Source of the DNA: an uncultured Bacteroidota bacterium | GTDB lineage: Bacteria; Bacteroidota; Bacteroidia; Chitinophagales; Chitinophagaceae | NCBI GenBank assembly: GCA_903874055.1 | Contig: CAIQQR010000130.1 | Span: 22,750 to 86,749 of the forward strand | Length of the DNA stretch: 64,000 bases | Reading direction: 5' to 3' | In this document: piece by piece, positions 17,177 to 21,140 of the stretch | How positions within the stretch are numbered: position 1 is the stretch's first letter | How the letters are laid out: every line of letters begins with the position of its first letter | Notes under the pieces: generated by a model | The model's database searches: none | What the model saw: the letters and a program-made list of their open reading frames with translations, nothing else | What the model was told of the DNA's origin: nothing | Translations under genes and position numbers: made by a program

Positions 17177-17208
17177 TTTGGCTACAAGCTAATAGTATCC
17201 TAATTTTG
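17177..17208 (+). promoter_or_regulatory. Bacteroidota sigma-A-type promoter for metH operon
   Basis: TTTG (17177-17180) - 20 nt - TAATTTTG (17201-17208), matching -33 TTTG / -7 TAnnTTTG. Confidence 0.65.
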
Positions 17209-17213
17209 CCACG

Positions 17214-17309
17214 CATTGCAGGTGGATTTGTTTATTGTTCAACCTGCCCATCCGTGAGGAAAAATGGAACTAATAAACGATATCCATATCGCTCCCCAAA
17301 TTATTAGTT
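17214..17309 (+). ncRNA. Candidate SAM-II-like riboswitch in metH leader
   Basis: P1 GCAGGT(17218-17223)/ACCTGC(17242-17247); pseudoknot P2 GTTTATTGTTC(17230-17240)/GAAC-T-AATAAAC(17267-17278) with one bulged U; alternative stem AACTAATAA(17268-17276)/TTATTAGTT(17301-17309). Confidence 0.72.
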
Positions 17310-17348
17310 GAATTTAGCTCCTTTTGGATGTTGCATAAAAAAATATTT

Positions 17349-18362
17349 ATGTCAATACAAGAGACGCTTAAAAAAAGAATTTTAGTAATTGATGGTGCCA
17401 TGGGTACCATGATTCAGCGCCATAAACTTACCGAAGAAGATTATAGAGGTGCTCGATTTGCAAATTGGCATTGTGATGTTAAAGGCAACAATGACTTATT
17501 GTGCATTACACAACCTGCTATCATTACTGGCATTCATTTGCAATATTTAGAAGCGGGTGCTGATATTATTGAAACCAATACTTTTAGTAGTACTTCCATT
17601 GCAATGGCCGATTACGACATGCAGGAATTTGCTTATGAATTAAATATTGCTGCAGCAAAATGTGTACGCGATGCCATTGATCAATACAAATCAAAACATC
17701 CTAATACCTCCGAAAAATATATTGCAGGTTCCATTGGGCCTTTAAATAAAACATTGAGTTTATCTCCGGATGTAAACAATCCAGGATTTCGTGCGGTTAC
17801 TTTTGACGAAGTGGTTGAAGCATATACCGAACAAATTAAAGGATTGGTTGATGGAGGTGTAGATGTTTTATTAGTAGAAACTATTTTTGATACTTTAAAT
17901 GCGAAGGCAGCGATATTTGCGATAAAGGAATACTTTAGAAAAATAGGTAAACCAGCACTACCTATCATGATTAGCGGTACCATTACCGATGCCTCTGGTA
18001 GAACTTTAAGTGGACAAACCTTAGAAGCTTTTTACACTTCGGTAGCACATGCAAAACCATTAAGCGTAGGCTTAAACTGCGCATTAGGTGCACAGGAAAT
18101 GCGATCACATATCGAAGAGCTTTCACAGATTGCTTCTTGCTATACTTCGGCATACCCCAATGCAGGTTTACCAAATGCAATGGGTCAATATGACGAATCG
18201 CCTCACCAAACCGGACATTTTATTGAAGAGTGGGCAAAGAATCAATTTGTAAATATTGTGGGTGGATGTTGTGGAACTACACCAGACCATATTAAACAAA
18301 TGGCAGACAATGTAAGAAACCTAACACCAAGACCTTTACCAATTGTGGATACGAATATTTAA
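17349..18362 (+). CDS. metH: Homocysteine S-methyltransferase module of cobalamin-dependent methionine synthase
   Basis: LVIDGAMGTMIQRHKL, GLNCALGAQEM, GGCCGTTPDHI zinc-site motifs. Confidence 0.95.
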   Translation: MSIQETLKKRILVIDGAMGTMIQRHKLTEEDYRGARFANWHCDVKGNNDLLCITQPAIITGIHLQYLEAGADIIETNTFSSTSIAMADYDMQEFAYELNIAAAKCVRDAIDQYKSKHPNTSEKYIAGSIGPLNKTLSLSPDVNNPGFRAVTFDEVVEAYTEQIKGLVDGGVDVLLVETIFDTLNAKAAIFAIKEYFRKIGKPALPIMISGTITDASGRTLSGQTLEAFYTSVAHAKPLSVGLNCALGAQEMRSHIEELSQIASCYTSAYPNAGLPNAMGQYDESPHQTGHFIEEWAKNQFVNIVGGCCGTTPDHIKQMADNVRNLTPRPLPIVDTNI

Positions 18363-18407
18363 TGACATTGAATAAAATTCATTGGAATTAAAACAACAGA
18401 GAAAATT

Positions 18408-21140
18408 ATGAGTGAGCAAATACATATTAAGCCTTATCTAAGATTAGCTGGATTAGAACCTTTAGTGATTCGTCCAGAAACTAATTTTGTAAACGTAGGA
18501 GAAAGAACCAATGTAACTGGTTCCAAAAAATTCGCGCGTTTAATTAAGGAAAATAAATACGAAGAGGCATTATCGGTTGCACGTCAACAAGTAGAAAGTG
18601 GTGCACAAATTATTGATGTAAACATGGATGATGCTTTATTAGAAGGCGTCAAAGCAATGACAACTTATTTGAACTTACTTCAAAGTGAGCCAGATATTGC
18701 ACGTATTCCTGTAATGATTGATAGCTCGAAGTTTGAAATTATTGAAGCAGGCTTAAAATGTGTGCAAGGAAAATGTATTGTGAACTCTATTTCCATGAAG
18801 GAAGGAGAAGCCAAGTTTATCGAACAGGCACATATTTGTAAAGCTTATGGTGCTGCGGTAATTGTAATGGCTTTTGATGAAGTAGGACAAGCAGATACCA
18901 AAGAAAGGAAAATAGAAATTTGTGAGCGTGCTTATAAAATATTAGTGGAGCAGGTTGGATTTGATCCACAGGATATCATTTTTGACCCCAACATTTTTGC
19001 TGTTGCAACAGGTATTGAAGAACATAATAATTATGCGGTAGATTTTATTGAAGCTACACGAGTAATTAAACAAAAAATGCCATTAGCAAAAGTGAGTGGT
19101 GGTGTTTCGAATGTTTCTTTTTCTTTTAGAGGAAATGAAGCAGTGCGTGAAGCAATACATGCTGTGTTTTTATACCATGCTATTAAGGCTGGTATGGATA
19201 TGGGTATTGTAAATGCAGGACAATTGGCAGTGTATGATGAAATTGATCCTGTACTAAGAAATTTATGTGAGGATGTTATTTTGAATAAAAACAATGATAA
19301 CAACCAAGCCACTGAAGCATTAATTCAATTTGCAGACAATATAAAAGCTAGCGGAGAAAATGCAGGACAATCCTCCGAGGAAGCAAACAAATTAAAATTA
19401 GCATGGAGAAACGATACGGTGGAGAAGCGTTTAGCGCATTCTTTAATTAATGGTATTACTGATTTTATTGAAGAAGATACCGAGGAAGCAAGACAAAAAT
19501 ACAGTGCGCCATTGGAAGTGATTGAAGGCCCTTTAATGGCAGGCATGAATATTGTAGGTGATTTATTTGGTGCGGGCAAGATGTTTTTACCACAGGTGGT
19601 GAAAAGCGCAAGGGTAATGAAAAAAAGTGTAGCGGTATTGACACCATATATTGAAGCAGAAAAGGAAAGATTAAAAAATGCATCTGCTAATCCTAATGGG
19701 CAAACCAAGGGACCTGCTAAAATATTATTAGCTACCGTAAAAGGAGACGTACACGATATTGGTAAAAACATTGTGGGCGTTGTATTGGGTTGTAATGGCT
19801 ATGAAATTATTGATATTGGAGTAATGGTGCCAGCAGATAAAATTTTATCTGAAGCAGTGAAACAGGATGTAGATATTATTGGACTAAGCGGATTAATTAC
19901 ACCTTCCTTAGATGAAATGGTATATATCGCTAAAGAAATGAAGCGACGTGGAATGAATATCCCATTAATGATTGGTGGTGCGACCACTTCACGTATGCAT
20001 ACTGCCGTAAAAATTGCACCTGAATATGGTGATGGTGTAATACATGTTTTAGATGCATCTCGCAGCGTTACTGTTGCAGGCGCTCTTTTAAACAAAGAAC
20101 AAAAAGTAGGCTTCTTAAGTAATTTAGAAAAAGAATATACTCAGCTTAAATCAGATTTTGATAATAAGAAAACCGTAAAGCAATCCACTCCTTATGCAGA
20201 AGCTTTACAAAATAAAATGTCCATTGATTGGTCTAGTTTTAATGCAACTACGCCTAGTTTTACTGGGAATCAGGGTATAGAAATTAATGACTTATCGGTA
20301 TTGGTGGATTATATTGACTGGAAGCCCTTCTTTATTGCATGGGAATTGCATGGTAATTTCCCTGCAATCTTAACTGATGAAAAAGTAGGCGAAGTCGCTA
20401 GTAAATTATATGCCGACGCCAATGCTTTGTTAACTACCATTATCAAAGAAAAATGGCTGACTGCAAAAGGTGCAGTAGGTTTCTGGGAGGCAAGTTCAAT
20501 GGGTGACGATGTTATCATAAATCATGTTGGCGAAAAAACAGAATTGCATTTCTTAAGACAACAAGCTAAAAAAGCAGCAGGTCAACCTAACTTTTCATTA
20601 GCTGATTTTATTTGTCCATCAACAGAAAATAAAAAAGATTATCTAGGTGCATTTGCAGTAACTATCCATGGAATTGAAAAGCATATCAAAGCATTTGAAG
20701 ATAATCAAGATGATTACAACAAAATTATCTTACAAGCTTTAGCGGACCGTTTAGCAGAAGCATTTGCAGAATATTTACACGCGAAAACACGAAGAGAAAT
20801 TTGGGGCTATGCAAAAGATGAGCAATTAGGTAATGATGAATTGATTAAAGAAAACTATGTGGGCATTCGTCCTGCACCTGGCTACCCTGCCTGTCCAGAT
20901 CATACTGAAAAATACACTTTGTTTAATTTGTTAGACGCTGAAAAGCATACTGGCATTACCTTAACTGAAAGCTTGGCCATGTATCCAGCATCAAGTGTAT
21001 GTGGCTGGTATTTTGCAAATCCACAAAGTCAGTATTTTGGTTTAGGTAAAATTCAACAAGACCAAGTAGAGGATTATGCAAAACGTAAGCAACAAACTTT
21101 AGAGTATATTACCAGATGGCTGCAACCAGTTATTGAATAG
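18408..21140 (+). CDS. metH: Methionine synthase: pterin-binding, B12-binding and activation modules
   Basis: [42 protein letters not shown] (DxHxxG), [16 protein letters not shown] activation domain. Confidence 0.97.

Follow-up and report, generated by a model that had tools for sequence, protein, structure and literature searches.

The window analyzed in this study is a 64,000-nucleotide stretch of DNA from a 2.13 Mb genome, in which a first-pass annotation made from the letters alone had described the leader of the methionine synthase gene, metH, as a SAM-II-like pseudoknot riboswitch with a competing stem. The locus raises the question of whether this leader carries a riboswitch, whether that riboswitch belongs to a described family, and how a bound ligand would act on the gene. 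All the features named in that annotation (promoter, P1, an 11-bp P2, the bulged U17271 and the competing stem) were present in the sequence. All features described below lie on the plus strand and are numbered from the first letter of the window.

Locus, promoter and distribution of the element

A Bacteroidota-type promoter occupies 17177-17208, with TTTG at 17177-17180, a 20-nt spacer and TAATTTTG at 17201-17208, as had been annotated. From its position, the 5' end of the RNA is expected at approximately 17213-17217, a few bases 5' of P1. Homologues were gathered from the metH leaders of genomes of the same genus and of other families. GTDB genomes were also scanned for an exact sequence pattern, and 33 of the collected leaders served to build a covariance model (R1) for further searching. 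Some 3-kb loci from the model search (L112-L114, L117 and L119) came on the opposite strand to the match and need reverse-complementing to be read. Among 123 homologous leaders, TAnnTTTG was present in 100, nearly always 2-11 nt 5' of P1, compared with a background of 0.00075 per position within the window. Most of the leaders that lacked it showed TAnnTTCG or TAnnTTTA at the same place, and 72 of the 100 also had TTG at the -33 spacing. This conserved spacing supports a transcript start adjoining P1.

The regulated gene begins at ATG 17349 (MSIQ...). The alternative start at ATG 17328 is unlikely, as close relatives carry a stop codon just 5' of MSI. The first open frame (17349-18362, 337 aa) encodes the homocysteine S-methyltransferase domain and matched PF02574 and MetH models; the second (18408-21140, 910 aa) carries the pterin-binding, B12-binding and activation domains (PF00809, PF02607, PF02310 and PF02965). 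Methionine synthase (17349-21140) is split here into two adjacent genes, 45 nt apart, with the homocysteine-binding part first and the remainder second; in other genera of the order, it is either split or a single open frame of approximately 1230 aa. The assignment of metH as the target gene was borne out in the relatives, where every real match from the pattern scan with a readable downstream gene lay 5' of metH, at distances ranging from a few bases in Chitinophaga and its relatives to approximately 290 nt.

Of the 200 Chitinophagaceae genomes sampled, 151 gave a covariance-model match to the element; these represent 78 of 104 genera and have one copy per genome, with one exception seen. In the class-wide sample, eight of the ten positive genomes were Chitinophagaceae, and the element was nearly absent elsewhere in the class; of the two other positives, one precedes metH (L116) and one is doubtful (L119). 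True matches bearing a family-level name were mostly Chitinophagaceae, and a search of viral contigs yielded one metH relative and nothing more.

Pseudoknot architecture and the putative ligand site

P1 is formed by GCAGGU (17218-17223) and ACCUGC (17242-17247). In 33 aligned sequences, all seven P1 pairs changed on both sides. Matched arms paired far better than permuted arms (z = -17.7; like the other permutation z-scores given here, this value is raised by the relatedness of the sequences and serves as support rather than as a probability). The P1 covariation expected among homologous metH leaders was therefore found. P1 is followed by L1, the third strand GGAUUU (17224-17229), which together with G17230 gives the GAUUUG of the RF01726 consensus; these letters were kept in 182 of 183 unique pattern matches. 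The 5' strand of P2, GUUUAUUGUUC (17230-17240), is nearly invariant and pairs with GAACUAAUAAAC (17267-17278) in 11 base pairs interrupted by the single bulged U17271. We refer to this 3' strand, which also contains A17272 and U17274, as the switching strand S2. P2 was 100% paired in the 33-sequence set, where ten of its eleven pairs were invariant, a conservation too high for covariation to test most of them. Two independent double changes were nevertheless present, one from C-G to U-A (L057) and one near the top of P2 from U31-A277 to A-U (L267 and L271), so that the proposed P2 covariation is seen at these pairs and the rest of the helix is almost invariant. The pairing of both P1 and P2 failed when the partner strand was slid by 1-3 columns in the same set.

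L3 (17248-17266) is 19 nt long and contains a small hairpin, P3, of the form CC-GUGA-GG (17252-17253/17258-17259). The enlarged, hairpin-bearing L3 of the first-pass annotation thus exists in the window, but both its length (approximately 10-70 nt) and its hairpin vary widely among relatives, and its annotated AAAAAUG ending is not conserved: the relatives end in GGAGAAAA, AAAUC, CUAA and so on. The two halves of L3 covaried in relatives (z = -10.3 in Sediminibacterium clade B and -2.5 in clade A). Taken as a whole, the architecture is SAM-II-like, with the GAUUUG third strand, the UUG/CUAA core and a bulged U in the equivalent place.

The sequence conservation of GATTTGTTTATTGTT and AACTAATAAAC is very high, as would be expected if the leader were bound by a protein, whether an RNA- or a DNA-binding regulator, and not by a metabolite. 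However, the P1 covariation, the variable L3, the two folds available to one strand and the match to the SAM-II core are traits of an aptamer, and we consider the protein reading very improbable.

All 4227 Rfam families were scanned, and the element gave no match at the curated cut-off (gathering score). When stretches of 261 and 76 bases were searched at E<=10, no SAM family (RF00521, RF01726, SAM-V or others) appeared, and no Rfam SAM match exceeded the cut-off in 11 leaders from relatives. As a positive control, RF01726 was run on 247 genomes of the class and found SAM-II long-loop members in 33, with 29 over the cut-off and none among the Chitinophagaceae genomes of that sample. Weak RF01726 matches within the genus were set aside: none was over the cut-off, and the best (L089) has a mismatched P1. 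The element is SAM-II-like by architecture, yet it does not qualify as a member of RF00521 or RF01726, and the suggestion that it might be the described long-loop variant did not hold, as the long-loop members read precede metK and keep an A where the element has a U. The name SAM-II fits the fold, and membership in a SAM-binding family has the standing of a candidate. No description of the element was found in Rfam models or the searchable literature, and a search of the main texts of openly available papers found no riboswitch linked to metH in Chitinophaga or Chitinophagaceae.

The RF01726 members (L306-L325), which come from other Bacteroidia families, precede metK at 18 of 20 loci, those where the gene could be read. 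It appears that metK and metH are the riboswitch-controlled genes in different Bacteroidia families.

The structure of SAM-V shows the adenine of SAM paired to U47, its sulfonium opposite the U20:A48.U9 triple, and its amino and carboxyl groups bound by A50, which in turn pairs with A18 (PMC6061858). The bases around the sulfonium and the adenine give SAM its advantage over SAH, and removal of the A50 hydrogen bonds or base substitution at A50 badly weakens SAM binding in SAM-V (PMC6061858); SAM-II does not accept SAM once either of its amino-acid groups is missing (PMC1273637). We aligned the GAUUUG, UUG and CUAA blocks to the RF01726 consensus and members, and this alignment, which is not a structure, placed U17271 at U47, U17236 at U20, U17228 at U9 (U11 in SAM-II), A17272 at A48, A17234 at A18 and U17274 at A50. 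The equivalents of U9, U20, U47, A48 and A49 were kept. In contrast, the A50 position (A47 in SAM-II), which follows CUAA, was a U in all 181 true unique aptamers (the 183 unique pattern matches minus two inside L3; part of this set was fetched with a pattern already demanding CTAATAAAC), and the model-based and metH-based sets, which did not demand CTAATAAAC, agreed on this U. The A18 position (A17234) was an invariant A facing U17274 in all 181 sequences, whereas the RF01726 members read had A at the A50 position in 20 of 20, facing C in 14 and A in six. An alternative register in which U17274 would be the bulge facing the ligand was rejected: A17234 lies opposite U17274, and nothing lies opposite U17271. 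Because the adenine and sulfonium sites are kept and a U occupies the A50 position, recognition of the adenine and the sulfonium looks intact from these alignments and recognition of the amino-acid part looks changed.

The invariant change from A to U may mean that the same fold senses another methionine-cycle compound, for example SAH or decarboxylated SAM. The base replaced is the one that contacts both amino-acid groups of SAM (PMC6061858), its replacement separates all 181 element sequences from the 20 long-loop members, and SAM-I variants that bind spermidine provide a precedent (PMC10853860). On the other side, the sulfonium bases (U17228, U17236 and A17272) and the adenine base (U17271) are kept, and metH as the target fits SAM; we regard a different ligand as unlikely.

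The competing strand and the output step

The 3' strand of P2 has a second possible partner. S3, UUAUUAGUU (17301-17309), pairs with S2 at 17268-17276 and thereby excludes P2 (z = -2.2 in the window and to -8 in clade B). This mutually exclusive stem, already noted in the first-pass annotation, proved to be conserved in the family. The distance from S2 to the beginning of S3 is approximately 19-37 nt in most leaders, and the complementarity of S2 to downstream RNA averaged -9.2 kcal/mol in 112 leaders vs. -4.7 kcal/mol after shuffling. Calculated with the same method for the window, P2 (-7.0 kcal/mol) and S2:S3 (-7.6 kcal/mol) were nearly equal in predicted energy, which is what a two-state switch requires. 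The hairpin enclosed by this stem had been drawn as CGAUAU-CC-AUAUCG, which would need a 2-nt loop; the fold instead gave CGAUA-UCCA-UAUCG (17278-17291, with arms 17278-17282/17287-17291), located inside the competing arm and sharing C17278 with S2. This inner stem covaried family-wide (z = -7.4 without clade A and -3.3 in clade A), and the pairs flanking S2:S3 also covaried (z = -3.6 and -3.0). Permuted-arm tests were used here because the inner stem stayed out of register when the S2-S3 region was aligned by sequence. RNAalifold on whole leaders found hardly any consensus, owing to the pseudoknotted P2 and the variable loop lengths. Only in the window's clade, S5, UCCUUUUGGAUG (17319-17330), pairs with S0 (17249-17260, part of L3) around the S2:S3 hairpin (S0:S5 z = -3.7), and this pairing is contained in the minimum-energy fold. 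One subclade has lost S3 and keeps S5. Sequence comparison establishes the architecture, the promoter, the target gene, the pairing of P1 and the conservation of S2:S3 as the alternative to P2.

Several other features were observed in this region. The S2-S3 loop (17291-17297 in the window, and the same place in relatives) is C-rich almost everywhere (CUCCCC, CCCCCC, CUCC...UUUCCC) and might serve Rho or another factor. In many leaders outside Sediminibacterium, a short repeat-like sequence, GTTGYGTCRCNCNCTT, lies between S3 and metH and also elsewhere in the loci; it was found in 25 of the 325 fetched loci (for example, L121:4511-4526, L148:2580-2595, L183:5093-5108 and L180:3161-3176) and was absent from the window's genome. 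A GGATTTG in the S2-S3 loop of Ferruginibacter-type leaders was considered as a second copy of the aptamer and rejected; it can pair with an upstream CAACUCC in the inner stem.

Across Chitinophagaceae, S2 and S3 stood in three arrangements relative to the metH start. In Chitinophaga-type leaders, S2 sits shortly before the AUG (approximately 9-16 nt in Chitinophaga), and S3 is missing. In Sediminibacterium clade B, the start region serves as a partner of S3 (S3:S4; 12 of 26 leaders at p<=0.05, z = -2.7), as in L040, where AUUGGUUC/GAACCAAU ends a few bases 5' of the AUG; the predicted accessibility of the start region dropped upon P2 formation in 22 of 27 clade B leaders. In the window's clade, the predicted accessibility hardly changed (0.34 vs. 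0.31). As a general output, the pairing of S3 with the start region was rejected, with 0 of 17 leaders in the window's clade and one of 47 in the rest of the family (z = -1.3), and the pairing tests gave no support for a link between S3 and the start codon in the window or in other leaders outside clade B and the Chitinophaga type.

We also examined S2:S3 plus a T-run as an intrinsic terminator and rejected it as the output step, as the T-run is confined to some lineages and mostly stands several bases away from the stem. In many Ferruginibacter/Segetibacter-type leaders (L121, L139, L148, L183 and L198), the S2:S3 hairpin is followed at a distance of a few bases by 6-8 consecutive T, possibly a transcription-level version of the switch. 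The ligand could conceivably turn metH on, with S2:S3 as the OFF structure (an attenuator or a start block) and P2 formation releasing the gene. The T-run that follows S3 in many leaders outside Sediminibacterium is consistent with such a sign, as is the long S0/S2:S3/S5 hairpin of the window's clade, which stops approximately 18 nt before the AUG. However, most Sediminibacterium leaders lack the T-run, Chitinophaga lacks S3 and its P2 would itself cover the region before the AUG, and in clade B the formation of P2 lowers the predicted accessibility of the start; we consider an ON switch distinctly improbable.

We favor, with slightly better than even confidence, a new subclass of the SAM-II/SAM-V fold, with SAM as the likely ligand and with metH repressed through the movement of S2 between P2 and S2:S3. 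The metH mRNA would open with a ligand-sensing pseudoknot composed of P1, the GAUUUG third strand in the P2 groove and an adenine pocket at U17271. With ligand bound, S2 (17267-17278) would be held in P2, and metH would be repressed. With ligand absent, S2 would pair with S3 and, in the window's clade, L3 would also pair with S5; S2:S3 and L3:S5 together would form one long hairpin incompatible with the aptamer. In Chitinophaga, P2 would mask the start directly, and in Sediminibacterium clade B, the released S3 would pair with the start region. We infer SAM as the ligand, the OFF sign and the output step. The OFF sign follows from the Chitinophaga and clade B arrangements and from the logic of SAM feedback on methionine genes, which is known for SAM-II (PMC1273637). 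The U at the amino-acid contact, the missing Rfam match, the lack of support for S3:S4 outside clade B, the almost constant start accessibility predicted in the window's clade, the loss of S3 in one subclade and the near-invariance of P2 count against this reading.

A bolder classification would place the element in a separate riboswitch class built on the SAM-II/SAM-V scaffold, with a ligand altered by the A-to-U change and with B12-dependent methionine synthase controlled throughout Chitinophagaceae by S2/S3 exchange. No description of such a strand exchange for SAM-II was found in the literature searched; we give a separate class a low probability.

Comparison with known SAM riboswitches

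We describe the element as a real, family-wide and unlisted riboswitch candidate that combines the SAM-II/SAM-V fold with an invariant contact change and a competing-strand platform. A riboswitch candidate present in approximately three quarters of the sampled genomes of Chitinophagaceae, a large family with many sequenced members, and missing from Rfam leaves the regulation of methionine synthase in these genomes unannotated. The invariant change at a known contact to SAM offers a natural test of the features that a SAM-II-type RNA requires for binding it, informative whichever way it turns out. Additionally, a single family contains leaders in which the same regulatory strand lies close to the start, lies far from it or is re-paired, so that the evolution of an expression platform could be traced among related species.

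The SAM-II long-loop family (RF01726), which is listed for Bacteroidetes (Weinberg et al. 2010, PMC2864571), resembles the element in its H-type pseudoknot, GAUUUG, UUG/CUAA core with bulged U, presence in Bacteroidia and downstream methionine-cycle gene. The long-loop members read precede metK, have a GCA/UGC P2b and place A or C opposite the A at the amino-acid contact, whereas the element precedes metH, has a GUUC/GAAC P2b with A facing U, extends P2 by GUUU/AAAC and possesses the S3 competitor. SAM-II itself (SAM_alpha, RF00521; Corbino et al. 2005, PMC1273637) shares P1 with a pseudoknotted P2, a promoter a few nucleotides 5' of P1 and association with methionine genes; it differs in that its model did not match and in the contact A, which is replaced by U in the element. 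Many SAM-II members carry intrinsic terminators (PMC1273637), and the element has the S2:S3 hairpin instead.

SAM-V (PMC6061858) has a similar P1 and P2, a small P3 in L3, the same adenine and sulfonium bases, and a control strand that is likewise the 3' side of P2; the likeness in P3 is backed by the covariation of the L3 halves in Sediminibacterium clade B. In contrast, the A50:A18 pair of SAM-V is a U-A pair in the element, which also has a longer P2 and usually lies far from the start codon. The SAM-V motif usually has the start codon no more than ten nucleotides away (PMC2704228); this distance is 70 nt in the window, and the element is close to the start only in Chitinophaga-type leaders and a few others. 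Control over such a distance has a parallel in S. meliloti, in which the SAM-II-type pseudoknot of metA controls a start codon approximately 70 nt downstream (PMC9373788). The S. meliloti pseudoknot uses a distant Shine-Dalgarno sequence within P2, whereas in the element a competing strand re-pairs S2.
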